From: Deferribacterales bacterium Deferri_01
GTDB taxonomy: Bacteria > Chrysiogenota > Deferribacteres > Deferribacterales > Geovibrionaceae
Length of the DNA: 64,000 nt
Direction: 5' to 3'
Assembly (NCBI GenBank): GCA_001603805.1
Contig: LUZY01000013.1
Coordinates: 474,723 to 538,722, forward strand
Shown here: in pieces, positions 11,348-52,720 of the stretch
How positions within the stretch are numbered: the first letter of the stretch is position 1
Layout of the letters: each line of letters opens with the position of its first letter
Notes under the pieces: model-generated
What the model saw: only the letters and a program-made list of their open reading frames with translations
Told to the model about the DNA's origin: nothing
Databases searched by the model: none
Made by a program: the position numbers and the translations under genes

Positions 11348-11363
11348 TTTCGTAAAAGCTCCT

Positions 11364-11466
11364 TTATTTAATAATCCAAAAAACTACATCCTGTATTTTT
11401 TGTATACACGCTCGCGGCAGGATAAACCTGCCTTCGCTACGCACGGCGACGTCCCATCCATGGGAC
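11364..11466 (+). repeat. Three-hairpin element, copy 1 (103-bp tandem unit)
   Basis: First full unit of a tandem array, ending 17 bases upstream of the BI-1 gene. H1 is 11377-11402 (caaaaaa with ttttttg, centre atcct), H2 is 11416-11432 (ggcagg, loop ataaa, cctgcc), H3 is 11451-11466 (gtccca, loop tcca, tgggac). The linkers acacgctcgc and ttcgctacgcacggcg match the family. Orientation is given as the strand on which the linker reads acacgctcgcg. Confidence 0.9.
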
Positions 11467-11569
11467 TTATTTAATAATCCAAAAAATTACATCCTGTATT
11501 TTTTGTATACACGCTCGCGGCAGGATAAACCTGCCTTCGCTACGCACGGCAACGTCCCATCCATGGGAC
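11467..11569 (+). repeat. Three-hairpin element, copy 2 (103-bp tandem unit)
   Basis: A near-perfect direct repeat of copy 1, exactly 103 bases later, differing at only a couple of positions. One difference changes the bulged base in H1. All three hairpins and both linkers are intact. The two units share the boundary ttatttaataatcc. Confidence 0.9.
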
Positions 11570-11655
11570 TTATTTAATAATCCAAAAAACTACATCCTAA
11601 GTTTAACTATACATACTCACACCGTGATAAACACGACTTCGCTACGCACGGCGGA
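11570..11655 (+). repeat. Three-hairpin element, copy 3 (degenerate)
   Basis: It begins with the same ttatttaataatccaaaaaa boundary and the H1 loop tacatcct, but the second half of the H1 stem is lost. H2 is weakened (cgtg, ataaa, cacg) and the linker cttcgctacgcacggcgg is still clear. H3 cannot be recognised. It looks like an older decayed unit at the distal end of the array. Between this copy and the MFS gene (11656-11804) I see only one hairpin and no gene. Confidence 0.75.
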
Positions 11656-11691
11656 AAAATTCTGCTAAACCATATATCAGAATATCCCAGA

Positions 11692-24485: not shown

Positions 24486-27400
24486 TTATTCTGTTTTTGC
24501 AGCTTCCTGTGCTTTCTGTTTTTCAAGATCGCTTTTCTTAACATCGTCAAGCGTTCTCTTTTCCTCAACAGTGATAAAGGCTTCTATTACATCGCCCTCT
24601 TTAAGGTCGTTGAATTTCTCCACACCAATACCGCATTCATAACCTGCCATAACTTCTTTGGCATCGTCCTGAAAGCGTTTGAGAGAGGAAATTTTGCCTT
24701 CGTAAACAACAATGGAGTTCCTGATAACACGAACGCCTGCTGTCCTTGAAACCTTTCCTTCCGTAACGTATGAACCGGCGATTTTGCCGATTTTCGGTAC
24801 GGAGAACACCTGTCTGACTTCTGCCTGACCGATGATCTGCTCTCTGAGGTTCGGGTCTATCATACCTTCAAGTGCCTGTTTAACATCATCCACAATCTGA
24901 TAGATTACGGAGTAAAGGTTGATGTCCACGCCCTCTTTCTCTGCTTTTTCTCTGGCTTTGGCATCCGGTCTTACGTTAAAGCCGAATATCAGACCGTTTG
25001 AAGCAGCGGTGAGGATAATATCGTTCTCGTTAATACCGCCCACACCAGAGTGGATTATATTAACCTTGATTTCTGTGCTGGTGAGCTTGTTGAGCGAGTT
25101 TTCAAGAGCAGCAAGTGAGCCCTGAACATCCGCCTTAAGAACTATATTAAGCTCTTTCAGCTCGCCTTCTTTAATTTTTGCAAAAAGATCAGTAAGAGAA
25201 ACTTTTGTTTTCTCCATAAGAGCTTTTTCGCGTTTATTGTCCGCTCTGAGTTCTGCCAGCTGTTTAGCTACCTTTTCATCAGGGGTGACGATAAATCTAT
25301 CGCCTGACTGAGGAACATCGGAAAAGCCCATAAGCTCCACAGGAATTGAAACTCCCGCTTCCTTAACAGACATTCCCTTATAGTTGAACATAGCCCTGAC
25401 CTTGCCGTATTCTGTTCCGCATACAAAGTAATCGCCTTTTTTGAGGCTTCCGTTTCTTATAAGAACTGTGGCAACCGGACCTTTCTGTTTGTCAAGTTTG
25501 GACTCAATAATAATACCTTCAGCAGGCTTGTTTGGGTTACCTTTAAGGTCAAGCATTTCTGCCTCAAGGAGAACTCTTTCAAGCAGAGTATCAATATTGA
25601 GGTTCTTTTTAGCTGAAATTTCCTGAAACTGATTATCCCCGCCCCATTCTTCAGAAATAATTCCGAGTTCGGAGAGCTGGCTTTTAACCATATCAGGGTT
25701 GGCATTTTCCTTATCTATCTTGTTGACTGCAACAACGATTTTAACGCCTGCCGCCTTTGAGTGGTCAATTGCTTCTTTTGTCTGGGGCATAACGCCGTCA
25801 TCCGCCGCAACCACCAGAATAACTATATCCGTAACCTGTGCGCCTCTTGCACGAAGAGTTGTGAACGCCTCGTGACCGGGGGTATCGAGGAATACGATCT
25901 TTCCGTGGTCGAGTTCGACTTCATATGCGCCGATATGCTGAGTAATGCCGCCTGCCTCTTTTTCTGCAACAGATGTTCTTCTGATTGCATCAAGGAGTGA
26001 TGTTTTACCATGGTCAACGTGACCCATAACCGTAACGATCGGAGGACGGGGAACGAGATCTTCCGGCTTGTCAGCAACAGTGGGGAGGAGATCCTCTTCT
26101 GTAACCACTTTTGTTTTGACATCTATGCCATATTCTGTAGCAAGAAGTGCAGCTGTATCCGCATCAACAGCCTGATTCATAGACGCCATAATGCCGAGGC
26201 TGAGAAGTTTTTTAACAAGCTCAGTCGCCTTAACCGCCATAAGTTTAGCAAGGTCGGAAACAATAATGTTTTCACCTATTTCAATGCTTGACGGACGCAC
26301 TATAACCTTAGGTTCAGTCTCCTGACGTCTTCTGCCTCGTTTGTCCATTCTGGGTCTTGAGGTCTGCGGTTTTTTCTTAACCGGTTCCTCTTCTACCTCT
26401 TCCTTTTCAACCGGAGCAGCAGCAGCCACGCTTGTATCAATTTCATGTTCAATAGTGAGTTCGTCAAAACCTTCAGCCACTGTTTTGTGGAAGCTTTTAG
26501 GTTTATCCGTCTTTTTGACCGGCTTCTTTTTAACTTCAGCCTTCTGAGGTTCAGGTTTATCTTTTATCTTCTTCTTGATCTCAAGTTTAATTTCATCTTT
26601 AGGGCTCATGCCGTTTGACTGGGCAGGTCTCTGCGGACGTCTGTCACCATACTGCGGTCTGTCGCCTCTGTCTTTATCCATAGGAGGACGTCTGTCGCCG
26701 TACTGAGGTCTGTCGCCCTGAGGACGTCTGTCACCGTACTGCGGTCTGTCACCCTGGGGACGCCTGTCACCGTACTGGGGTCTATCGCCCTGAGGACGTC
26801 TGTCACCGTACTGAGGTCTATCACCCTGAGGACGTCTGTCACCGTATTGGGGTCTATCACCCTGAGGACGTCTGTCACCCTGCGGTCTGTCGCCTCTGTC
26901 ATTGTTGTACTGAGGTCTGTCACCCTGAGGACGCCTGTCACCATACTGCGGTCTGTCGCCTCTGTCATTGTTATACTGGGGTCTGTCACCCTGAGGACGC
27001 CTGTCACCGTACTGAGGTCTCTCGCCTCTGTCATTGTTATACTGGGGTCTGTCACCCTGAGGACGCCTGTCACCCTGAGGTCTGTCGCCCCTGTCATTGT
27101 TATACTGGGGTCTGTCACCCTGAGGACGTCTGTCACCGTATTGAGGTCTGTCGCCTCTGTCGTTGTTGTACTGGGGTCTGTCGCCCTGAGGACGCCTGTC
27201 ACCCTGAGGTCTGTCGCCCCTGTCATTGTTATACTGGGGTCTGTCACCCTGAGGACGCCTGTCACCGTACTGAGGTCTGTCGCCTCTGTCATTGTTGTAC
27301 TGGGGTCTGTCGCCCTGAGGACGCCTGTCACCGTACTGAGGTCTCTCGCCCCTGTCATTGTTGTACTGACGGTCACCCTGAGGTCTGCGGTCGCCGTACT

Positions 27401-28049
27401 GAGGTCTGTCGTTTGAATGGGGCTTTGATGCAGGTTTTTCCTGTTCTTCGCCTCGCGTCTGCGAGTCTTTTTCCTGCTGAAGCATTTTTTCTCTCTCACC
27501 TTGTTGACGGCTTTCAGGCGCTTTCGGGGTTTCAGCCTGAGCAGAGCCGGCAGATATATTGTTCTGGGGTTTTTCAGCGGAAGCAGGAGTCTTTTCAGTG
27601 GTAACCGGGGTTTCCTTTTTCTCTGCTGAAACAGTCTGTTCCTTTGCCGCAGAAGCTGCTTCGACCGGTTTGGAAGCAGCGGGAGCAGTCTGCGGTGTTT
27701 CGGGAGCCGCTGGTGCTTTTACATCTGTTTCCTTAGTATACTGCTCCCTCTGTTCATCCACTTTACGGATGTTTTTCTCAAGGGCGCGTTTGCGGTTAAG
27801 CAATTCTTCACGGGATATTTTCTTAGGCTGCTGAGGATCTTCCTCTCCGCCTTTTATTTTCACTTCTCTTGCTCGGGGGTGTCTTTTGTGTCTTTCGAGG
27901 GCTTTTTGAAGCAGTTCCTGACGTTTGTTCAGTTTGGATTTTGCGGATTCATCGGAATCGCCTTCGGCTAAATCCATTCCCGTATTTTCAAGTTCGTCAT
28001 TTCTATTCAATTTTTTCCCCTCATCATTATTTTTAAAATCTGACATCAA
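24486..28049 (-). CDS. infB: Translation initiation factor IF-2 with expanded Arg/Gln-rich repeat region
   Basis: IF-2 is the GTPase that places fMet-tRNA on the 30S subunit and drives subunit joining. The 1187-residue protein is several hundred residues longer than usual. The excess is in the N-terminus: an acidic/Ala-rich part to about residue 205, then about 260 residues (roughly 210-470) made of repeated [12 protein letters not shown] and NNDRGDRPQ units. The IF2-N helical domain ([20 protein letters not shown]) comes near residue 600. The G domain carries GHVDHGKT at 676-683, DTPGHEAF and [11 protein letters not shown], and domains II-IV follow intact ([17 protein letters not shown]). 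The repeats are in frame and end before any conserved domain. The gene follows the YlxR/L7Ae gene by one base. Confidence 0.97.
26637..27416 (-). repeat. In-frame coding repeats in infB (about 36- and 66-bp units)
   Basis: The DNA encoding the N-terminal region of IF-2 consists of short near-identical units. One codes for [12 protein letters not shown] (12 codons) and one for that plus [10 protein letters not shown] (22 codons); a variant lacks the Tyr codon. GDRRP occurs about 15 times. Units differ mainly at silent positions. The region is likely to slip or recombine, and the repeats hold open long spurious frames on the other strand. Confidence 0.9.
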
Positions 28050-28751: not shown

Positions 28752-30027
28752 GTTTTGATGAAAGATAGTCTATTGCTTTATTAATAAGCCCGACAGCCTC
28801 TTCCTCTGTTATTTCAAGTTCTTCCGTAAGCTCATCCGGCGTGGCATTGGAGAGCTTTTCTATATCGTCTATCCCTGCTTCAAGGAGAGCGGAGATGGAC
28901 GAATCGCTGAGACCTTCAAGATTTTCAAGGTTGTACAGCTCATAGAAGTCTTTCATTTCCTGTTCCTGAGCAACAAGACGTTCTTTTCTGATTTCAGCGT
29001 ATTCACTTTCTTTCAGAACGTCAATTCTCCAGTCGGTAAGTCTGGCTGCGAGTCTTACATTCTGCCCTTTTTTGCCAATGGCAAGCGAAAGCTGATCATC
29101 GGGAACCACGACTTCTATTGTTCCTTCATCTTCAAAAACATTTGTAAGAACAACATCAGCAGGTGAAATGGCGTTGCACACAAACCTCACAGGATCGGGT
29201 GACCACTCAACCACATCTATTTTTTCACCTCTGAGTTCATGGCTGATTGAGTTAATTCTTGAGCCTTTAAGACCGATGCAGGCACCGACAGGGTCAATAT
29301 TGCTGTTCTGGCTGTAAACTGCAACCTTTGCTCTGTCTCCGGGTTCTCTGGCAACTGATTTTACATCTATAATCCCCTCGAAAACTTCGGGAATCTCTGT
29401 TTCAAAGAGTTTTTTCATAAATTCAGGATGAGTTCTGGAAAGAACAAGCTGCGGCCAGCCTTTATGGGTTTTGATGTCAAGCAGAAGAGCGCGCACATAG
29501 TCGCCTCTGTTGAAGTAATCACCTGCCATCATCTCCCTGCGGGGAAGGATTGCCTCGGTTTTGCCTATGCTGACTGTCAGCAGGTCTCTGTCAGCTTTAA
29601 GGAGAGTTCCGTTTATGATATCGCCCTTTTTGCTGTTGAACTGGTCAAAAACAACCTGGCGTTCGGCGTCACGGAGCTTCTCAAAAAGTTTCTGTTTTGC
29701 AACAAGAGCCGCCTGTCTGCCAAGATCATCCAGAGTAACTGAAACCATAAGCACATCGCCAAGCTGTGGGTCTTCTTTGTATTTCGCAGCTTCGTCCATA
29801 TCTATTTCAAACCATTTGTTGGTCACATCTTCACTGACCTCTTTAGGAACAAGTATTTCTATATTTCCTTTATCAAGGTCAACAACCACTTCCGGTTCAA
29901 GGTATTTTCCTATTTTTCTGCCAACAGCCGCAACTATCGCCTCTTTGAGTGCTTCTGCGAGAATTTCTCTGGAAACCCCTTTTTCACGACCCAGTTCATC
30001 GGCAACCTTAGCAAGTTCCCTTATCAT
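28642..30027 (-). CDS. nusA: Transcription termination/antitermination factor NusA
   Basis: NusA binds RNA polymerase and modulates pausing, termination and antitermination. The 461-residue protein has the N-terminal RNAP-binding domain, an S1 domain (NSKKGDIINGTLLKADRDLL), two KH domains (DPVGACIGLKGSRINSIS and LAIGKKGQNVRLAARLTDW) and a C-terminal helix-hairpin-helix-like segment (LEGLSDSSISALLEAGIDDI). It ends with a strongly acidic tail of Glu and Asp. It is nine bases from rimP in the rimP-nusA-ylxR-infB operon. Confidence 0.96.
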   Translation of the reverse strand: MIRELAKVADELGREKGVSREILAEALKEAIVAAVGRKIGKYLEPEVVVDLDKGNIEILVPKEVSEDVTNKWFEIDMDEAAKYKEDPQLGDVLMVSVTLDDLGRQAALVAKQKLFEKLRDAERQVVFDQFNSKKGDIINGTLLKADRDLLTVSIGKTEAILPRREMMAGDYFNRGDYVRALLLDIKTHKGWPQLVLSRTHPEFMKKLFETEIPEVFEGIIDVKSVAREPGDRAKVAVYSQNSNIDPVGACIGLKGSRINSISHELRGEKIDVVEWSPDPVRFVCNAISPADVVLTNVFEDEGTIEVVVPDDQLSLAIGKKGQNVRLAARLTDWRIDVLKESEYAEIRKERLVAQEQEMKDFYELYNLENLEGLSDSSISALLEAGIDDIEKLSNATPDELTEELEITEEEAVGLINKAIDYLSSKLEEAGVFEEGELDELEEDFSEEDEENEEIREDEEGR

Positions 30028-30627: not shown

Positions 30628-31635
30628 TCAGATTCTGAAAAGCGAGCAGTTTTTATCCATAATTCTCTCAATAAGACACTCCGCCACGGAAGAATCCGGA
30701 CAGCCATGTCCGCCTAAATGTATGGAAGGTTTGATTCTTTCACCATGAAAATCGCTCCCCGCTGTTACAAGCAGTCCTTTTGCAGCTGCAAACCTGAGAT
30801 AATCAGTCCTTTGCTGCGCATTATGATAGGAAGAGTAAACCTCTATCCCTTCTACACCGTCAATAAACAGTTCATCCATTTTTTTCTGAGGATAAAGCCC
30901 AGGATGAGCAACAGCAAGCACTGATTTACCGGCGAGCGCTGCGACCGTTTTGCGGTAGTCCAGCAGACTGACGTCAACATACGCCCTCCCGCCTTTAAAG
31001 AAATAGTCAAAATAGAATTTTGTATAAGGGGAATCAGACTTTTCACCCTTAAGATAAGGATGAAGCTCTGCCCTGTTTTTCTCATTCTCCGCCAGTACCT
31101 TAAGGAATGTAACGCCGGAAGGAGTCTTGCCGTCAGCAACCTCTATAACACGGTCAAAATCTACTTCAAATCCGAGACTTCTAAGCTTATCTGTACGCAG
31201 TTTCGCCTGAGAAAGCCTGTTTGCGGCAAATTCTTCAAGCAGAGCTGTAAGGTCAGCATCATCAGGATCTATGCCGTATGGGATGATGTGTATCTCTGTA
31301 TCCTTATGATATGTGGAAAGCTCAACAGCGGGAATATATGTCATGCTGCCGTCACCATACTTAAAGGAAAGCATTTCACGAACAGATGAAACAGTGTTGT
31401 GGTCGGTTATGGCAAAAAGGGAGTAGCTTCGTGAGCGCAGAACAGTATAAACATCAACAGGAGACAATACACCGTCGGAGCTGTGATTTGTATGAATATG
31501 CAGGTCGAATTGATTAATAGTTCCCAGACCGGCACATCCTGTCCGGCTGCTCACACGCTCACGGCAGGGTAAACCCGCCTTCGCTTCGCACGGCGCAGTT
31601 CCATCCTTGGAACTGTCAGTACCTGATTTATGCAT
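30628..31635 (-). CDS. PHP-domain phosphoesterase with repeat-derived N-terminus
   Basis: A 335-residue PHP protein (predicted metal-dependent phosphoesterase, TrpH/YciV-like). Metal-site motifs are DLHIHTNHSSDG from residue 44, FAITDHN, AVELST and TAGSDFHGE. TrpH-type enzymes hydrolyse nucleoside 3',5'-bisphosphate or short RNA 5' ends; the substrate here is unproven. PHP proteins normally start a few residues before the DLHxHT motif. Here residues about 7-40 (including DGTAPCEAKAGLPC) are translated from a copy of the three-hairpin element. The ATG has a good AAGGA site eight bases upstream, so the extension is plausibly made. A GTG within the element is an alternative start. Confidence 0.82.
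   Translation of the reverse strand: MHKSGTDSSKDGTAPCEAKAGLPCRERVSSRTGCAGLGTINQFDLHIHTNHSSDGVLSPVDVYTVLRSRSYSLFAITDHNTVSSVREMLSFKYGDGSMTYIPAVELSTYHKDTEIHIIPYGIDPDDADLTALLEEFAANRLSQAKLRTDKLRSLGFEVDFDRVIEVADGKTPSGVTFLKVLAENEKNRAELHPYLKGEKSDSPYTKFYFDYFFKGGRAYVDVSLLDYRKTVAALAGKSVLAVAHPGLYPQKKMDELFIDGVEGIEVYSSYHNAQQRTDYLRFAAAKGLLVTAGSDFHGERIKPSIHLGGHGCPDSSVAECLIERIMDKNCSLFRI
31510..31616 (+). repeat. Three-hairpin element, copy 4, inside the PHP gene
   Basis: H1 31525-31549 (cagaccgg/ccggctg with one bulge, loop cacatcctgt), linker acacgctcac, H2 31563-31579 (ggcaggg/cccgcc with a bulged a, loop taaa), linker cttcgcttcgcacggcg, H3 31596-31615 (cagttcca, tcct, tggaactg). It is read on the other strand as codons of the PHP protein without a stop. 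Confidence 0.88.
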
Positions 31636-31648
31636 ACTGCTTTTCCTT

Positions 31649-31756
31649 TTGATTAATAGTTCCCAGACCGGTACATCCTGTCCGGCTGCTCACACGCTCG
31701 CGGCGGGGCAAGCCCGCCTTCGCTTCGCACGGCGCAGTTCCATCCTTGGAACTGTC
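31649..31756 (+). repeat. Three-hairpin element, copy 5, upstream of the PHP gene
   Basis: A near duplicate of copy 4, 139 bases away, sharing the left boundary ttgattaatagttccc. H1 31664-31688, H2 31702-31718 (ggcggg, loop gcaag, cccgcc), H3 31735-31754 (cagttcca, tcct, tggaactg). The bulge in H2 of copy 4 is repaired here by a different base, supporting selection on pairing. The rest of the gap 31636-31870 holds the terminator of the autotransporter and no gene. Confidence 0.88.
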
Positions 31757-31808
31757 AGTAGCTTTCTCATTCATAGTCCGCAGACTTATACATCCCCTGA
31801 TTGTTCAG

Positions 31809-31870: not shown

Positions 31871-34800
31871 TCAAAACGCAACGCTGATTGACGCTTTGCC
31901 GTGATGCTCCGTAATATAATCACCGAAACTTCCGCCATATCCCACACTTAAATTAACTGCCTCTGTTATATTACATTTTAAGTCTGTACCTATGATAAAA
32001 CTGTCTTCATCCAAAGGAAGCCCCTTTGTTTCAAACCTGCTTCCTCCTGATACAAAACGGCTTCTTCTTTCCGGTTCATAACCTTCTGTAATACGCTGAT
32101 AAACAGCATGTGCGCCCAGACTGAAAATACCGGAGAAAGCCACATTTCCCCTGAACCCGAAAGATGCAGCAAACATGCTGTCGCTGTAATCGCTTACAGC
32201 CAGTGCCATATCACCTCCGGCTTCATTAAAGGAATCAGCTTCCGTATAAATATAAGAAGCGCCGATAAAAGGCATAATGTTTACTTTGCCAAGATCTACT
32301 TTTTTACCGACTTCTGCAAATGCCTGAAAAATTCTTGCTCTGTAGTCGCCGTCAAGGGTTTCGATGATCCCTCCTGCTTCTGCTGTTCTTTCAGTATCAA
32401 CATCTGAAAAACCCATCAGACCGCCTGCCCTGAACTCGGCAAAACCTGTATCATATGAACCGTACGCACCCAAATGGATTGTTTTTATATCGGCATCAGA
32501 ATTGCGCCCTTCTCTGATTTCAACTTTTCCTGATTCAAACCCCAGAGCAATGCCAAAACGTCCTGAAGGCATCGGCTGAAAATCTACACCGCCGATCAGA
32601 ATCTGACCGTCTGCATCATATTTTGCCGCATTGCCATCAGAATCTGTATCTGCTGTAAATCCGAAAAGTTTGACCCATGAGCTGTTTTCTGCAGTTATTT
32701 TCACATCAGTTCTTTCAATAAGATGGGCAGTCAGCGAATCTCTTATAAGCCTGCTGTTATTCAATACTGCCGAAATGGCAGTTGCATGTATTTCACCGTT
32801 CATACTGTCAAAAGCACTGCGTGCGGAAGCTGCACTCATTCCTAAAATCTCTTTGTACACTTCGCTGTCCGTGCCAAGGGCTGCCAATGCGCTCGAAATA
32901 TTTTTCTGGTTATATGTTCTGGTTACAGATTCAAAGCTTGCATCGTTTCTGTAAACATCAAGTATAACTGAGTTATTTTTATATTTCAGAAAAGGATCAA
33001 GAAACGCTAGGTTGCTTGAAATCCCCTGGAATTCGCCTGTTAAACTTCCTGCTTCCAGTATTGTAAATGCGGTAAAATTGCCCCAGTCACCATTTTCTGC
33101 CAAAACAGAAACATGCCCGCCAGAGAGTTCTGCATTTCCCGCAATTATTGCAAGATCACTTGTGCCATCTGAATTTACCTCAACTTCATAAACAGAGCCA
33201 TTTTCAAAGATCACACTGTTCATTGTAATTACGCCTATTGAATTGCCGGGAGAAAGAGTACCTGAGAGACTGATGGCGTTATTAACTGTTCCGCTGCCTG
33301 CTATTTCAGCATTTTCGCTTATACTGATTAAACCCGCCGAGATTTCGCCAGCAGCAACGCCTTTTGCATTGCCCAGAGAATCATATCCGTTGGAAACTTC
33401 GTTTTCTCTGTATAAGTAAAGTGTTCCTTCCGTTATTTGCAGAGTGCCCTCACCAAAGTCATTGACTCCGCCAAGTTTCCAGACCCCTGAACCCGTTTTA
33501 ACAACGTCAACTGCTGTTAAATCAGCAGCAGAAACTGGATCACGCATATCGACCACAGAATTATCTTCAGTATTAACAGTTAAGACAGAGTCATGAGTTA
33601 CAAAGAAAATTGAATTTGCCTCGCCTTCGGCAAGATTTCCCGAAATCAGCGTAACGCCGTCATCCTGTGTATTAAATGTAATGTTTCTTCCTGCATAAAC
33701 TGCACCTCCGGGACCTGAGGCCGTATTGTCTGTCAGTGATATATTATTCCCGAAAACAACATTACCTGTGGCTGCGTAAACTGCTCCACCCGAACCGTAA
33801 GTAGCGGAATTCCCTGAAATCACCGCATCAGCCCCGAACTCAAGATTACCGCTGACTAAATAAACCGCTCCGCCTATATAGCCTGCGGTATTGCCCTTAA
33901 GTTCCGCACTGTTCCCGAAAACAGCACCGTTGTAAACAAGAAGCGCACCCCCGTAAGCGGCAGTATTATCAGTAAGTATTGCACCGTTTCCAAAAGTTAC
34001 CGTATTTTCAGAATAAACACCGCCACCGTAAGCATAAGCGCTGTTTCCGCTTATTTCGGCATCATCGCTGAAATTAACAGTTCCTTCTGAGTAAACTGCG
34101 CCGCCGTTACCTCCGGTTGAAACGTTTCCGGAAAGGGTTGTACCATCGCCAAAGACTGCGCTTTCAAACGAATATATAGCTCCGGTGGTATAAGCGGTAT
34201 TATTTGTAATCTCCGCACTTTCGCCAAAAATAACATTAGTCGCAGCAACAGCACCGCCAACACCGGAAGCAATATTGCCGGACAAAAGTGCATTATCACC
34301 AAATGAAGCTGTCTGCCCTGAAGAGACAGCTCCGCCGTGACCATTTTCCGCCTCATTTCCTGTAAGAACAGCATTGTTTCCGAAGGTGATGCTCCCTATG
34401 CCTGAATAAACCGCTCCGCCTCCATGTCCTGCTGTGTTATCCATTATAACTGCATTATCACCAAACTCTGCATTATTATAAGTATTTACAGCCCCGCCAC
34501 TTCCTGTTGAAGAAGTATTTCCTGTTAATGAGGCATTATCTGAAAAAATAATATCATTAGCTGCCCAGAGTGCGCCGCCTGAAGTATTCGCAACATTGCC
34601 TGAAATCGATGCGCCATTACCAAAGGTGATGTTACCCGTGCCTGATTCAGCTGCTCCGCCCTGCCCGTATGCGGCTATATTATCAGTCAGTTCTGCATTA
34701 TCACCAAATGTAATGCTTCCTACGGCTATAACAGCGCCGCCTTCTCCTCCGGTGTTGTTATCAAGAGTTGCACTGTCGCCAAATTCAACATCTCCGCCTG

Positions 34801-35392
34801 CAAAAATTCCTCCTCCGAGGTTTGCTGTCATATTTCCAGAAAAATGCGCTCCATCGCCAAGATACACATTTCCGGTATTGGAAAAGATAGCTCCGCCGCT
34901 GCCATTTAAAGATGAATTGCCTGAAAATACTGCAGAGTTATTAAAAGTTACATCCCCTTCTGCATAGACAGCACCGCCGAACATATTTTCGGTGTTAGAT
35001 GAAAAGCTTATTGTTCCTAAACCCGTAAAACTTATTTTCCCTGATGTGTTAAAAGCACTGGATAAACGATTCGCCACAGAAAAAGTTATGCCTTCCGCCA
35101 CACTGAAGACTGCGTGGGTGTCAACCGCACCGGTAAAATTTCCATTCATAACATCAGCACTGTCAATAACAAAGCGTCCTGCCTGCGTGCTTAATACCGG
35201 AGAGGTAAAATTCAGATCAGATAAAAGTATCCCCGGATTATTGCTTAACAAAATCTCATCATTTTCCATTATATCCAGAGCAAATACATTAAAGGTTAAA
35301 AAAATAACAAATAAAGAAACAGTTAATAATTTGAAACAGACTATAGAAATCAAGAAGAAAAGTCTTTTACAGCAGATATTAACGAACAACAT
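31871..35392 (-). CDS. Autotransporter with Pmp-like FxxN/GGA repeats
   Basis: A 1173-residue secreted protein. Residues 1-38 are a long hydrophobic signal sequence. From about residue 110 to 620 come some twenty repeats with the pattern FGDNAxLTGNTA then GGAVY, i.e. the FxxN and GGA(I/V/L) pairs that define Chlamydia-type polymorphic outer-membrane protein repeats and predict a beta-helix passenger. A junction region follows (GTLSPGNSIGVITMNSVIFE, as in autotransporter-associated repeats), then a C-terminal beta-barrel (about 905-1173) ending in Phe, expected for BAM-inserted porins. A GGAGGG site is just before the ATG. It is probably a surface adhesin; the function is inferred from architecture only. 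Confidence 0.9.
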   Translation of the reverse strand: MLFVNICCKRLFFLISIVCFKLLTVSLFVIFLTFNVFALDIMENDEILLSNNPGILLSDLNFTSPVLSTQAGRFVIDSADVMNGNFTGAVDTHAVFSVAEGITFSVANRLSSAFNTSGKISFTGLGTISFSSNTENMFGGAVYAEGDVTFNNSAVFSGNSSLNGSGGAIFSNTGNVYLGDGAHFSGNMTANLGGGIFAGGDVEFGDSATLDNNTGGEGGAVIAVGSITFGDNAELTDNIAAYGQGGAAESGTGNITFGNGASISGNVANTSGGALWAANDIIFSDNASLTGNTSSTGSGGAVNTYNNAEFGDNAVIMDNTAGHGGGAVYSGIGSITFGNNAVLTGNEAENGHGGAVSSGQTASFGDNALLSGNIASGVGGAVAATNVIFGESAEITNNTAYTTGAIYSFESAVFGDGTTLSGNVSTGGNGGAVYSEGTVNFSDDAEISGNSAYAYGGGVYSENTVTFGNGAILTDNTAAYGGALLVYNGAVFGNSAELKGNTAGYIGGAVYLVSGNLEFGADAVISGNSATYGSGGAVYAATGNVVFGNNISLTDNTASGPGGAVYAGRNITFNTQDDGVTLISGNLAEGEANSIFFVTHDSVLTVNTEDNSVVDMRDPVSAADLTAVDVVKTGSGVWKLGGVNDFGEGTLQITEGTLYLYRENEVSNGYDSLGNAKGVAAGEISAGLISISENAEIAGSGTVNNAISLSGTLSPGNSIGVITMNSVIFENGSVYEVEVNSDGTSDLAIIAGNAELSGGHVSVLAENGDWGNFTAFTILEAGSLTGEFQGISSNLAFLDPFLKYKNNSVILDVYRNDASFESVTRTYNQKNISSALAALGTDSEVYKEILGMSAASARSAFDSMNGEIHATAISAVLNNSRLIRDSLTAHLIERTDVKITAENSSWVKLFGFTADTDSDGNAAKYDADGQILIGGVDFQPMPSGRFGIALGFESGKVEIREGRNSDADIKTIHLGAYGSYDTGFAEFRAGGLMGFSDVDTERTAEAGGIIETLDGDYRARIFQAFAEVGKKVDLGKVNIMPFIGASYIYTEADSFNEAGGDMALAVSDYSDSMFAASFGFRGNVAFSGIFSLGAHAVYQRITEGYEPERRSRFVSGGSRFETKGLPLDEDSFIIGTDLKCNITEAVNLSVGYGGSFGDYITEHHGKASISVAF

Positions 35393-35554: not shown

Positions 35555-35599
35555 TATCTAGAACTGATACCCGGCGTTGAATGCAGCCAGATTAACATC
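35555..35599 (-). repeat. Distal copy of the iorB 3' end (direct repeat A)
   Basis: On the minus strand this reads DVNLAAFNAGYQF and a TAG stop, the exact C-terminus of IorB, but it is disconnected from the gene by an element. It differs from the copy on the gene at five third-codon positions out of 14 codons, all silent. Confidence 0.9.
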
Positions 35600-35602
35600 T
35601 CA

Positions 35603-35704
35603 ACTAATATCGCCGTATCTACATCCTGTGATACGGCTGAAAACGCTCGCGCCCTGCAAAGCAGGGCTTCGCTTCGCACGGCGCAGTTCCATCCATGGAA
35701 CTGC
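35603..35704 (+). repeat. Three-hairpin element, copy 6, between two iorB ends
   Basis: The best-paired copy. H1 35612-35637 (gccgtatc, loop tacatcctgt, gatacggc), linker aaacgctcgc, H2 35651-35667 (gccctgc, aaa, gcagggc), linker ttcgcttcgcacggcg, H3 35683-35704 (gcagttcc, loop atccat, ggaactgc). Stems are perfect and unlike those of copies 1-5 in H1 and H2. Confidence 0.92.
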
Positions 35705-35707
35705 AAC

Positions 35708-35752
35708 TATCTAGAACTGGTAGCCTGCGTTGAACGCTGCCAGATTAACATC
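35708..35752 (-). repeat. Proximal copy of the iorB 3' end (direct repeat B)
   Basis: The 3' end of the present iorB gene, 45 bases matched to the distal copy at 40 positions; all five differences fall on silent third bases. Together with the distal copy it brackets element copy 6. Confidence 0.9.
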
Positions 35753-36283: not shown

Positions 36284-36304
36284 TATTTACCTACCTTACT
36301 GATA

Positions 36305-36396
36305 ATTCAAAATTTATCATCCATGAAAATTTTGAATACACGCTTGCGGTCTGCAAAGCAAACCTTCGCTACACACGCAACCACATATATGTGGTT
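36305..36396 (+). repeat. Three-hairpin element, copy 7, between iorA and iorB
   Basis: H1 36305-36337 has a perfect 11-bp stem (attcaaaattt with aaattttgaat) and the loop core catcca. Linker acacgcttgcg. H2 about 36348-36364 is weakened (ggtctgc, aaa, gcaaacc). Linker cttcgctacacacgc, then H3 36379-36396 (aaccacata with tatgtggtt). It occupies the operon gap between iorA and iorB. Confidence 0.8.
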
Positions 36397-36398
36397 TT

Positions 36399-38138
36399 TT
36401 ATTTTCTCTGGTGGATAGCGTCAAATCTGCATACCTTCACGCAAAGCTCACAGCCGGTGCAGAGAGTTTCGTCTATAAACGCCCTTTTCTCTTCTTTATT
36501 CCAGAGAATTGCGGGGCATCCAAGCCTTGTGCAGATTGTACATCCTGAGCAATTATTCACATCCACAAAGAAAGGCGGGCGAATCACGCTTCTGTCAGCA
36601 AAAATACATGGTTTATCAGTAACAATAACACTCAGCTCCTCTTTAGCGGTTTCTTCCTTAAGGACCTTTATGCACTCGTCAGGATCAAATGGGTTCACCG
36701 TCCTGATATTTTTCACTCCCATAGCTTCAAGAAGCTTGGGAAAATTTATTCTCTGCGTTGGCGTGCCTTTAATTGTGCAGCCTGTTCCGGGGTTGGGCTG
36801 GTGTCCGGTCATTCCTGTTATTCTGTTATCCAGAATAATAACGGTTGATGTACCCGCATTGTACACAGAGTTCAGGAGACCGTTTATTCCTGTATGGAAA
36901 AATGTTGAATCGCCTATTACTGCAACGGATTTTCTAGCCATTGCTCCTTCCGTCGCTTTATCCAGACCGTGCGCCATAGGAATGCTCGCACCCATACAAA
37001 CAGTGGAGTTTATTGCGCTCAAGGGCGGCAAAAGACCGAGGGTATAACAGCCGATATCACCTGCGGCGAAAAGCTTCAGTTTAGCGATTGCATAAAACAT
37101 TCCCCTGTGTGAACAGCCGGGGCACATATTAGGCGGACGTGCGGGAAGCTGTTTGGGGTCAAAAGCAGGCTCTTTCACCTCTTTGCCGAAAAGCTTTCTG
37201 ACTTCATCCACCGAAAGCTCACCGCACACGCTTCTGTTAAGAGGCTGAACCTCAATTCCGGCGGCTTTGAGTTCATTTTCGATGAATCTGTCGAGTTCTT
37301 CAACTACATAAAGCTTCTGAACCTTCTCAGCGAAACGCTTAACCTTTTCAAAACAGATAGGGTAAACCATTTCAAGCTTCAGTATAGAAGCTTCGGGCAT
37401 TGCTTCTTTAACGTAATGGTAAGTAACTCCGGCACAGATTATGCCGATCTCCTCGCTGCGGAATTCCACAGGATTGAGAGTAAGCCTGCCCGTATCTGCA
37501 CAGTCTGAAAGCCTTTCAAGCCTGTTTTCAACTACCTTATGGCGTACTCTGGCATTTGCGGGAACCATAACCCATTTTTTTATATCATTCTCCGGTTCAA
37601 AAACAGGAGGTGTATTTCTCGGTTTAATTTTGACAACGGATTTACTGTGGGAAATCCTTGTGCATGAGCGGACAAGCACGGGAGTACAGTATTTTTCAGA
37701 CATGTCAAGGGCAACACCTATGAAGTCTTTTGCTTCCTGACTATCTGCCGGTTCAAGCATGGGAACCTTGGCAAGACGAGCATAGTGTCTGCTGTCCTGT
37801 TCATTCTGTGAGCTGAACATATTAGGGTCATCAGCCACAACAATTACAAGACCGCCGTTCACCCCTGTGTATGAGACTGTCATAAGCGGATCAGCCGCCA
37901 CATTAAGCCCCACATGCTTCATACAGGTCATAGCACGTCTTCCGGCAAGGGATGCTCCAATAACTGTTTCAAGGGCAACCTTCTCATTGGTCGCCCATTC
38001 GCTGTATATCTGTTCATACTGAGCCACATGCTCTGTAATTTCGGTACTTGGCGTTCCGGGGTATGAGCTTACAACTTTAACCCCATATTCATACGCTCCT
38101 CTGGCAAACGCCTCATTTCCGCTTAAAACTTCCTTCAT
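36399..38138 (-). CDS. iorA: Indolepyruvate:ferredoxin oxidoreductase, alpha subunit
   Basis: The large TPP- and iron-sulfur-containing subunit of indolepyruvate ferredoxin oxidoreductase. The 579-residue protein has the pyrimidine-binding domain (VKVVSSYPGTPSTEITEHVA), a TPP-binding core (GDIGCYTLGLLPPLSA, IGDSTFFHTGINGLLNSVYN, DNRITGMTGHQPNPG) and a C-terminal ferredoxin with two clusters: CSGCTICTRLGC and CTGCELCVKVC. It presumably takes part in fermentation or reductive synthesis of aromatic amino acids. The ATG overlaps nothing and abuts the stop of the YfgM-like gene. Confidence 0.96.
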   Translation of the reverse strand: MKEVLSGNEAFARGAYEYGVKVVSSYPGTPSTEITEHVAQYEQIYSEWATNEKVALETVIGASLAGRRAMTCMKHVGLNVAADPLMTVSYTGVNGGLVIVVADDPNMFSSQNEQDSRHYARLAKVPMLEPADSQEAKDFIGVALDMSEKYCTPVLVRSCTRISHSKSVVKIKPRNTPPVFEPENDIKKWVMVPANARVRHKVVENRLERLSDCADTGRLTLNPVEFRSEEIGIICAGVTYHYVKEAMPEASILKLEMVYPICFEKVKRFAEKVQKLYVVEELDRFIENELKAAGIEVQPLNRSVCGELSVDEVRKLFGKEVKEPAFDPKQLPARPPNMCPGCSHRGMFYAIAKLKLFAAGDIGCYTLGLLPPLSAINSTVCMGASIPMAHGLDKATEGAMARKSVAVIGDSTFFHTGINGLLNSVYNAGTSTVIILDNRITGMTGHQPNPGTGCTIKGTPTQRINFPKLLEAMGVKNIRTVNPFDPDECIKVLKEETAKEELSVIVTDKPCIFADRSVIRPPFFVDVNNCSGCTICTRLGCPAILWNKEEKRAFIDETLCTGCELCVKVCRFDAIHQRK

Positions 38139-47185: not shown

Positions 47186-47219
47186 ACGATAGGAAATTGA
47201 ACTTGTCTATATTAATCAA

Positions 47220-47316
47220 ATTAAAAAATCACCATCCATGGGATTTTTTAATACACGCTCGCGCCGTGGTAAACACGGCTTCGCTTCGCACGGCGGAAAA
47301 GCACGTCCTGCGCTTT
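47220..47316 (+). repeat. Three-hairpin element, copy 8
   Basis: H1 47220-47252 (11-bp perfect stem attaaaaaatc with gattttttaat, loop with ccatccatgg), linker acacgctcgc, H2 47263-47279 (gccgtg, gtaaa, cacggc), linker ttcgcttcgcacggcgg, H3 47298-47316 (aaagc, loop acgtcctgc, gcttt). H1 carries the loop usually seen in H3, and H3 a loop like that usually seen in H1. Confidence 0.82.
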
Positions 47317-47383
47317 AGCTGAAAGCCCCTTGCTGCTTACGCTTTGTTTGCGTTCCTCACATTCGTTGCGGTACGCACTCCGC

Positions 47384-47450
47384 GAACACATCCGTGTGTT
47401 CACATACACGGCTTCGCTTCGCACGGCGGCTTGTATGCTTTAGCCGCCGC
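47384..47450 (+). repeat. Three-hairpin element, copy 9 (partly deleted)
   Basis: H1 47384-47401 (gaacaca, tccg, tgtgttc), then only the right half of H2 (cacggc), the linker ttcgcttcgcacggcgg, and H3 47424-47449 (cggcggct with agccgccg). The region between copies 8 and 9 (47317-47383) holds short GC-rich inverted words but no gene. Confidence 0.65.
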
Positions 47451-51350: not shown

Positions 51351-51378
51351 ACAAATCCAGTTTATGCCCCATTTTATC
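51351..51378 (-). repeat. Distal copy of the ribBA 3' end (direct repeat A)
   Basis: A 28-base exact match to the gene end. On the minus strand it continues the frame KKKDKMGHKLDL with a TAA stop at 51349-51351, repeating the C-terminus of RibBA beyond the element. The neighbouring Lys codon is AAA here and AAG in the gene, and the stop is TAA against TGA. Confidence 0.88.
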
Positions 51379-51394
51379 TTTCTTTTTATAGTTC

Positions 51395-51486
51395 GAGAAA
51401 ACTACTTCCTGTGTTTTCTCTCACATGCTCGCGCCCTGCAAAGCAGGGCTTCGCTTCGCACGGCGCAATTCCTTCCATGGAATTGT
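51395..51486 (+). repeat. Three-hairpin element, copy 10, between two ribBA ends
   Basis: H1 51395-51420 (gagaaaac, loop tacttcctgt, gttttctc), linker cacatgctcgc, H2 51433-51449 (gccctgc, aaa, gcagggc), linker ttcgcttcgcacggcg, H3 51466-51485 (caattcc, ttccat, ggaattg). A further short hairpin tgctg/cagca follows before the gene. Stem sequences of H1 and H3 are unlike those of other copies. Confidence 0.9.
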
Positions 51487-51505
51487 GTTTGCTGAAAGCG
51501 CAGCA

Positions 51506-52720
51506 TCACAAATCCAGTTTATGCCCCATTTTATCCTTTTTAGTAAACAGATATTTTGCGTTTTCGGGGTTGAGGTCACTGTGTGTGCCGACCCTTTCCA
51601 CAAGCTCAAGCCCATAGCCAGACATGCAGCGCATCTTTTTAGGGTTATTTGTAATAAGGCGTATCTGGTTAATGCCAAGATGTCTTAATATCTGCGCACC
51701 GAAACCATAGTCACGCATATCTTCATTAAAACCCAGATGAATATTCGCTTCTATGGTGTCAAGCCCTTCATCCTGAAGATGGTAGGCATTGATTTTATTA
51801 AGTATGCCTATTCCTCTTCCTTCCTGAAACAGATAAAGTACAACGCCTCTTCCTTCTGCTTCCACCAGATCCATAGCCTCGTGGAGCTGTGAGCGGCAGT
51901 CGCACCTTCTTGAACCGAAAACATCGCCGGTGAGGCACTGCGAATGCACACGTACAAGCACGGGCTCGTCAGTGGTAACATCGCCTTTCATAAGAACAAC
52001 AGCTTCCTGACCGTCCACAACGCTTCTGAAGCCGAGTATATTAAATTCGCCGGCACTGGTGGGAAGCCTTGCGACATTAGTTTCTTCGATGAGCTTTTCA
52101 TGCTCCATTCTGTATGAAATAAGATCCGCTATAGTAACTATCTTCAGCCCGTGGATTCCTGCAAATTCATCAAGCTGGGGCATTCTTGCCATAGTGCCGT
52201 CATCGTTCATTATCTCGCAGATAACTCCGGCAGGTTTAAGCCCGGCGGACTTCATAAGATCCACAGAACCTTCTGTCTGCCCTGCACGCACAAGCACTCC
52301 GCCCTGCCTTGCACGCAGAGGGAAAACATGACCGGGTCTGGCGAGGTCTTTTGATGTTGATTTATCATCAATTGCAACCTTAACTGTGTGCGCTCTGTCA
52401 AAAGCAGAAATACCGGTGGTGACACCCTCTTTCGCCTCAATAGACACAGTAAAGGCTGTTCCGAAGCGGGCTGTGTTACCGTCTCCGCCAACCATGAGGT
52501 CAAGCCCCAGTCTGTCGCAGTTTTCTTCTGTCATTGCGAGGCAGATAAGACCACGGCCGTATTTAGCCATAAAGTTAATGGCTTCCGGAGTCACATACTC
52601 AGCGGCGCAAACAAGGTCGCCCTCATTTTCTCTGTCCTCATCATCCACAAGGATAATCATCTTACCCTGTTTAAGATCCTCAATAGCTGCGTCTATCGTA
52701 GCAATATTTTTATATTTCAT
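51506..52720 (-). CDS. ribBA: Bifunctional 3,4-dihydroxy-2-butanone-4-phosphate synthase / GTP cyclohydrolase II
   Basis: RibBA provides both branch precursors of riboflavin. The 404-residue protein has an N-terminal RibB domain (ILVDDEDRENEGDLVCAAEY and GRPGHVFPLRA-like DLARPGHVFPLRARQGGVL) and a C-terminal RibA domain with zinc cysteines in SQCLTGDVFGSRRCDC and VVLYLFQEGRGIGILNKINA, plus GLELVERV. After the last zinc cysteine the usual Gly is Arg (RCDCRSQL). The final codons, KDKMGHKLDL and stop, are repeated beyond element copy 10. It is between ribE and ribH. Confidence 0.95.
   Translation of the reverse strand: MKYKNIATIDAAIEDLKQGKMIILVDDEDRENEGDLVCAAEYVTPEAINFMAKYGRGLICLAMTEENCDRLGLDLMVGGDGNTARFGTAFTVSIEAKEGVTTGISAFDRAHTVKVAIDDKSTSKDLARPGHVFPLRARQGGVLVRAGQTEGSVDLMKSAGLKPAGVICEIMNDDGTMARMPQLDEFAGIHGLKIVTIADLISYRMEHEKLIEETNVARLPTSAGEFNILGFRSVVDGQEAVVLMKGDVTTDEPVLVRVHSQCLTGDVFGSRRCDCRSQLHEAMDLVEAEGRGVVLYLFQEGRGIGILNKINAYHLQDEGLDTIEANIHLGFNEDMRDYGFGAQILRHLGINQIRLITNNPKKMRCMSGYGLELVERVGTHSDLNPENAKYLFTKKDKMGHKLDL
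51508..51535 (-). repeat. Proximal copy of the ribBA 3' end (direct repeat B)
   Basis: The end of the present ribBA gene; 28 bases identical to the distal copy, with the stop codon TGA at 51506-51508. The two copies flank element copy 10. Confidence 0.88.

Follow-up and report, generated by a model that had tools for sequence, protein, structure and literature searches.

Several families of short, structured repeats offer points of comparison for the element described here. REP elements form hairpins that a transposase recognises, and pneumococcal BOX elements are intergenic, modular in build and structured as RNA. Rickettsia palindromic elements (RPEs), ~105–150 bp in length, each form one long palindrome and can be read in frame in conserved protein genes as tolerated insertions. 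Nearly half of them lie inside ORFs (PMC10969869). Two reports on enterobacterial repeats describe RU-1/ERIC, RU-2/YPAL and RU-3 as sitting before or within ORFs and in some cases making new N-termini (YPO1552, YP_0349), with YPAL carrying internal inverted repeats and variable target duplications of 3–26 bp (PMC2229807, PMC2759123). The RNA targets of the regulatory protein CsrA form another relevant group. One report gives RUACARGGAUGU as the SELEX-derived consensus, places the CAGGA(U/A/C)G repeats of CsrB in hairpin loops, sets the span of dual-site bridging at 10–63 nt, and describes how a CsrA dimer on a hairpin just upstream bridges to the Shine–Dalgarno (SD) sequence of Escherichia coli glgC (PMC7652899). 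The high-affinity form is an ANGGAX hexaloop directly on a stem (PMC4005645).

The locus considered here lies in a window of 64,000 nucleotides (the whole stretch of DNA analysed), in which a first-pass annotation had read a repeat element in frame as the N-terminus of a PHP-family phosphoesterase and likened the case to that of RPEs. The features of the locus are listed below.

31635–30628, minus strand: PHP-family phosphoesterase ORF, 335 aa, with an N-terminal sequence that opens MHKSGTDSSKDGTAPCEAKAGLPCRERVSSRTGCAGLGTINQFDLHIHT
31633–31635, minus strand: ATG, most likely the PHP start codon of the window species
31644–31650, minus strand: SD-like AAAAGGA, 8 nt before the ATG
31513–31617, minus strand: element copy 2, PHP codons 7 to ~42
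31603–31608, minus strand: apical hexaloop AAGGAT (ANGGAX) of the copy 2 5′ hairpin, on a 7-bp stem
31553–31590, minus strand: central core of copy 2, TGCGNAGCGAAG-hairpin-CGNGCGTGT
31536–31540, minus strand: apical loop AGGAT of the copy 2 3′ hairpin (inside CAGGATG)
31652–31756, minus strand: element copy 1, upstream of PHP, core end 56 nt before the PHP ATG
31628–31774, minus strand: 48-aa ORF that reads copy 1 in the element frame used by PHP, with a TAA that overlaps the PHP ATG (ATGCATAA)

Copy 2 opens its 5′ hairpin at codon 7 and closes its tail at about codon 42, and the D of the DLHIHT metal motif is residue 44, in agreement with the earlier claim that codons ~7–40 are element sequence read stop-free on the minus strand. 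The annotation had also correctly placed an SD sequence at good spacing before the ATG (duplex energy of −5.6 kcal/mol, computed, like all SD energies here, as a duplex with an assumed anti-SD sequence) and a second copy directly upstream, where a repeat match at 31649–31775 is 91% identical to copy 2 across 127 nt, at a spacing of 139. Residues 43–298 of the ORF match models of 3′,5′-nucleoside bisphosphate phosphatase and RNase RNM (E values of 6e-29 and 1e-27), with both scores below the curated equivalog cut-offs. The matched stretch starts 3–14 residues after the chain start in solved PHP-family structures.

The genome of the window species (G000) was compared with those of two congeners (G001, G002) and of relatives from the same family or order, which carry the remaining labels; a PHP protein match was obtained in 26 of 31 genomes (the window's and 30 relatives). 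Both congeners have two tandem in-frame copies at the same PHP site, in frames open for 401 (G001) and 387 codons (G002) and with copy spacings of 117 and 129, respectively, both multiples of 3. The 5′ loops of the PHP arrays are intact in all six copies (two per species), on stems of 7–9 bp. The core motif was found in none of 14 outgroup PHP loci (3.8–3.9 kb fetched for each), and at the 13 where the gene start was readable (nine from the same family, four from the same order; the search pattern did not locate the PHP start at the other, L017) the previous stop codon lies 4–29 codons before the D. These 13 loci are without the extension, and no element-free orthologue with the same extension was encountered. 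A search for related loci with the PHP body as query gave no confirmed relative. Since the element is present in three species and absent from the outgroups, its entry is placed before the three species diverged and after their split from the other genera. What had been claimed as an in-frame, tolerated N-terminal repeat insertion thus holds for all three species of the genus compared here and for none of the 13 outgroup loci; the likeness to RPEs fared less well, as discussed below. The several cysteines ascribed to the added residues are a property of the window species, with three in the 37 codons before the D, and dwindle to two in G001 and one in G002.

In G003, PHP starts inside the 3′ end of the upstream gene, and G002 keeps an ATG there, 90 codons before the D. 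If the PHP start lay inside the end of the upstream gene, as it does in G003, an element inserted just after that gene's stop codon would come to lie between the PHP start codon and the PHP body, and translation would have to pass through it. The gene immediately before PHP in G002 is that of an oxidoreductase subunit; in the window, a gene for a 1173-aa autotransporter (31871–35392, minus strand) separates the indolepyruvate oxidoreductase subunit beta gene from PHP.

The reach of translation into the element was assessed from candidate start codons, numbered in codons relative to the D. In all three species the stretch from the element to DLHIH is free of ATG, GTG and TTG, which makes the PHP N-terminus at least partly element-derived in each. 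Upstream candidates are an ATG at −43 in G000 (SD −5.6), a TTG at −94 in G001 (SD −9.0, AAGGAG) and, in G002, the ATG at −90, which overlaps the upstream gene and is without an SD sequence. All three species share two further candidates, a GTG at −16 (SD −1.6 to −1.8) and, at −7, a CTG (SD −4.3 to −4.5), for which the AGGA is supplied by the loop of the element's own 3′ hairpin. Initiation within the element, at either of these two conserved codons, would leave only 7–16 residues element-derived. The CTG does lie near the usual start of the family, at −8 to −11, and the even codon-position pattern described below is compatible with non-translation upstream of it; we nevertheless regard an internal start as unlikely, given the weak SD energy of the GTG, the rarity of CTG start codons, and upstream frames that are open to start codons in all three species, those of G001 (TTG with AAGGAG) and G000 (ATG with AAAGGA) being the stronger. 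For the window species, the sequence indicates that the ATG at 31635 is the likely start and would give the full 43-residue extension. This ATG is favoured because the core of copy 1 ends at the element family's usual distance before it.

Comparison of the three species gives no sign of selection on the amino acids of the extension. Across 292 codons of the PHP body, pairwise substitutions at the first, second and third codon positions number 45, 31, 148; 35, 28, 145; and 37, 28, 134, a strong third-position bias, whereas in the 37 codons before the D, compared ungapped, they number 8, 5, 5; 11, 8, 8; and 6, 7, 5, and are thus even across positions. By this comparison the extension contains no conserved peptide. 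On sequence grounds, the flat pattern fits a tolerated leader rather than a selected one, and would equally fit non-translation of most of the extension.

Of 299 copies outside PHP, 108 have this frame open from end to end, so an open frame through the element is unremarkable in itself; an upstream start codon accompanies the open frame in 62 of the 299, and 14 have in addition an SD energy of −5.5 or lower. This background frequency is what might suggest an annotation artefact, with a frame that happens to be open and a PHP protein that starts elsewhere. Such an artefact is very improbable at this gene, where start codons are missing between the element and the metal motif in three species and the next one downstream, a TTG at +13, would remove DLHIH. 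Among 135 element clusters, a single gene, represented by three orthologues, has an upstream start and a frame open through the element into a conserved domain, a count obtained from genes called by a home-made codon-usage script and corrected by extending frames upstream, the script having picked a TTG downstream of DLHIH for the G001 and G002 PHP genes. The sole other flagged ORF with an upstream start encodes 56 aa (score 8). A protein-coding origin was accordingly rejected as a general property of the element: about one third of the copies have it open by chance as a reading frame, and one conserved gene alone uses that frame.

The element is a high-copy family within the genus. A strict core pattern returned at least 66 (G000), 87 (G001) and 225 (G002) copies, as opposed to none for the reversed control pattern, and a covariance model built on 48 copies returned 126, 147 and at least 150 matches in the same genomes. 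The element is ~105–120 nt long and is spanned by the 117 positions of the model. Between a 5′ and a 3′ hairpin, each of which forms one end, lies a rigid central core that includes a variable hairpin. The structure derived from the 48 copies has three hairpin regions, in which 20 of 28 pairs show two-sided changes. Paired cells amount to 93.8% vs. 68.8% in shuffled alignments (30–51.4% in slid versions), two-sided changes to 332 vs. 101, and the covariation score to 0.622 vs. 0.170; two of the five measures, the number of pairs with a two-sided change and the number of further pair types, are not clearly above the shuffles, 52 and 158 of 500 of which reach them. Further copies in the window, and an array near its 11-kb position, are as follows.

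11355–11573, minus strand: tandem pair of copies (unit of 103 nt), immediately before AAAGGAGC and the start codon ATG of a 273-aa ORF (11347–10526)
~11590–11660, minus strand: diverged third copy of the 11-kb array
35599–35701, minus strand: copy after the stop codon of the indolepyruvate oxidoreductase subunit beta gene, with a 45-bp direct repeat (35708–35752 / 35555–35599)
36290–36430, minus strand: copy directly upstream of the SD sequence and ATG of the subunit beta gene
47201–47317, minus strand: element copy
51371–51487, minus strand: element copy, with a 34-bp direct repeat (51508–51541 / 51351–51384) that duplicates a gene's 3′ end

Within arrays the spacing is constant, and it differs between arrays, with units of 92–203 nt including flank. 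Each unit of one four-copy array of G002 (L115, G002:C1:1549900-1553200) includes a short ORF that has an ATG and SD sequence of its own, runs through the element and is attached to no known gene. A second, related hairpin repeat of the GCACATGGATGTGC-CCGCGGAG type, with a GGATG loop, follows several copies (window 47340–47440, L061, L062, L069, L070). The window also contains a long array of 18- to 66-nt repeats at 26604–27410, within a minus-strand ORF of 1187 aa (28049–24486); the nearby ORF at 30027–28642 is presumably a nusA-like gene.

Outside the genus the element is sparse. In a search of 50 genomes of the phylum with the covariance model, 13 genomes gave matches, those outside the genus having 1–7 each. 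A separate count with the model within the family gave 8 matches in G007, 7 in G003, 1 in G009 and none in G005. In four G007 matches that were inspected the outer loops are still CCATGGATGG-like, and three of the four directly precede an SD sequence and ATG. Outer loops of the CATGGATG type mark sparse relatives of the element in G007 (L074, L174, L176, L178) and G003 (L173, L175), the central parts of which differ in G003. Rfam gave no match above the gathering threshold in the whole window, and none up to E = 5 for 31480–31800. Occurrence outside the family was considered and rejected: the core pattern, run against 84,980 genomes (a search from which records near the window may be left out), gave six single matches in unrelated organisms that were judged to be chance, flanking hairpins being missing by eye. 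The core pattern was absent from viral contigs, and a search of plasmids with one copy as query returned nothing. The literature searched yielded no recognised account of this element, or of a dispersed repeat that carries CsrA sites.

The most constant feature of the outer hairpins is the apical loop. Three hundred and five copies were scored (203 from G002, 88 from G000 and 14 from G001) at loci chosen because they hold copies. An A(N)GGA apical loop on a stem is present at the 5′ hairpin in 228 copies, at the 3′ hairpin in 251 and at both in 181, while 124 are without one or both loops by the criterion used. Random windows from the same loci, unmasked for elements, gave corresponding frequencies of 2.3, 2.6 and 0.6%; the antisense strand gave 0 and 1, and shuffled flanks 4 and 5 of 305. 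The 3′ rule allows a 1-nt 3′ bulge, chosen after the alignment had been seen and applied equally to the controls; without the bulge the 3′ count is 43 of 305. The 5′ loop is mostly an ANGGAX hexaloop, and the 3′ loop is mostly AGGAX on two pairs followed by a one-base 3′ bulge, with stems that vary freely. The conserved part of the element is thus an RNA-type structure with CsrA-type loops. The outer hairpins most likely represent paired CsrA-binding sites once transcribed, a prediction made from their sequence and fold. The two loops are 68–69 nt apart with a hairpin between them, slightly beyond the 10–63 nt given above for bridging. The resemblance to CsrA/RsmE target hairpins and to the CsrB/RsmZ sponge RNAs lies in the A(N)GGA apical loops and in the presence of several sites per RNA. 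The element differs from CsrB/RsmZ, and from single leaders, in being a genome-wide repeat instead of a dedicated small RNA, with recognition by CsrA being predicted. A single csrA gene (PF02599) was found in each of 12 family genomes searched, including all three of the genus, and overlaps fliW in G000 and G002; in the G000 ORF, counted from the second Met, position 4 is L and position 44 is R. As CsrA is common, the presence of csrA is weak evidence.

The disposition of the copies relative to genes is strongly strand-biased. Clusters between tandem genes lie in sense with both genes in 72 cases and antisense in 17 (p = 3e-9); the remaining clusters of the 135 lie between convergent (35) or divergent (9) gene pairs or are without one neighbour (2). 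The clusters are not independent, 18 of 79 in G002 sharing gene and side with a G000 cluster. The core ends 50–60 nt before a start codon in 29 of 193 copies with a downstream gene on the sense strand, vs. 0 of 94 for genes on the antisense strand. Thirty-six of the 305 copies have a sense gene that begins no more than 75 nt away, and in 20 of the 31 of these that were measurable the GGA of the 3′ loop lies 25–29 nt before the SD motif, a glgC-like layout with a site just upstream of the SD sequence. At the other end, 107 clusters have a co-directional upstream gene, and in 35 of them that gene's stop codon is no more than 38 nt from the core, at the 5′ hairpin or beside it. Many copies are located behind genes, where an effect of CsrA is less obvious.

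The element is probably mobile. At 23 of 135 clusters the flanks carry direct repeats that exceed the 99% level of a control with mismatched flanks; a few of these may be other repeats. The right repeat copy begins 36–47 nt after the core end in 20 of the 23, and the adjacent direct repeats are mostly 16–61 bp. At one G000 locus (L044 1395-1640, G000:C8), the element is flanked on each side by a 61-bp copy of a gene's 3′ end, one of which leaves the gene end intact, and the site is empty in G001 and G002 (L162, L163), each with a single uninterrupted 61-bp copy. At L137, the G002 repeats are absent from the other two species, but the surrounding sequence also differs.

These properties raise the possibility that the A(N)GGA hairpins are recognised not by CsrA but by a mobilising enzyme with single-stranded DNA or RNA as its substrate. 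The repetitive, arrayed nature of the element, its long target duplications and the precedent of REP hairpins are in keeping with this proposal, which we consider doubtful, since the fixed spacing to start codons occurs on the sense strand only and therefore points to mRNA. Neither of the two gene families tested provides a mobilising gene shared by G000–G002. Y1_Tnp (PF01797) was found in none of the three genus genomes, though six of the 12 genomes searched, G005 and G007 among them, have it, and reverse transcriptase (PF00078) was found among the three only in G000, as a single domain gene (L159, G000:C3:114810-115451). REP/RAYT mobilisation and retrotransposition were rejected for these reasons, even though the high-copy intergenic hairpin arrays recall REP/RAYT.

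The comparison with RPEs can now be drawn more closely. The element shares with them a short structured form, a length within their range, and in-frame reading in a conserved protein gene as a probably tolerated insertion. It is unlike them in that nearly all copies are intergenic, one gene is affected and no peptide is conserved, and in being built of three distinct hairpins where RPEs have a single long palindrome, with long target duplications as well. A selfish insertion in the manner of RPEs, namely a mobile palindrome that is chiefly translatable in frame and whose RNA has no role, would account for an in-frame copy kept in a conserved gene of all three species, and the 16–61 bp target duplications, with an empty site in two sister species, signify mobility or at least duplication on insertion. 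It would leave unexplained the loops conserved beyond chance while the stems vary, the strand bias and the single orthologous gene so read among 135 clusters, and we hold it to be improbable. Compared by description only, BOX elements are similar in modular intergenic layout and RNA secondary structure, and the enterobacterial RU repeats differ from the element, which has no Rfam match, target duplications up to 61 bp and CsrA-type loops. Nor do the target duplications, mostly of 16–61 bp, resemble the short fixed duplication (such as TA) of a MITE.

The reading we favour, with somewhat better than even confidence, is a dispersed mobile RNA element with paired predicted CsrA sites, an array of which occupies the upstream gene junction at PHP, where copy 2 is read as a 43-residue N-terminus. 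Once the element is transcribed, its outer hairpins would bind CsrA as a pair, and at the spacing seen upstream of genes CsrA on the 3′ hairpin could reach the SD sequence and alter translation or mRNA stability. At PHP, insertion would have taken place where the gene meets its upstream neighbour, before the three species split, and a two-copy tandem array would have formed. This array would have displaced an ancestral leader of ~8–11 residues, one copy becoming the N-terminus. Initiation at the ATG at 31635 would then provide the window species with an element-derived leader tolerated by the enzyme, while copy 1 would take the usual leader position before that ATG. A bolder formulation, which we put forward tentatively and at rather less than even odds, is that the element constitutes a transposable CsrA regulon device: genus-specific, each copy bringing a predicted pair of CsrA hairpins, often at a fixed distance from an SD sequence, with the PHP copy doubling as protein. 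Were this true, copies could place new genes under CsrA control and jointly act as a dispersed CsrA sponge, and at the RNase RNM-like PHP gene the same nucleotides would serve as both CsrA site and protein.

It is unusual for a dispersed repeat in bacteria to have, as its conserved part, the structure that a known global RNA-binding regulator recognises. The long target duplications, with their preserved gene ends, raise the question of mechanism. The PHP gene would represent an RNA element doubling as protein sequence, in which the frame is kept while the amino acids drift. If CsrA binds these hairpins, the element would offer a direct route by which mobile DNA rewires posttranscriptional control, and the three species, with their shared, private, filled and empty sites, provide the material for testing such rewiring.
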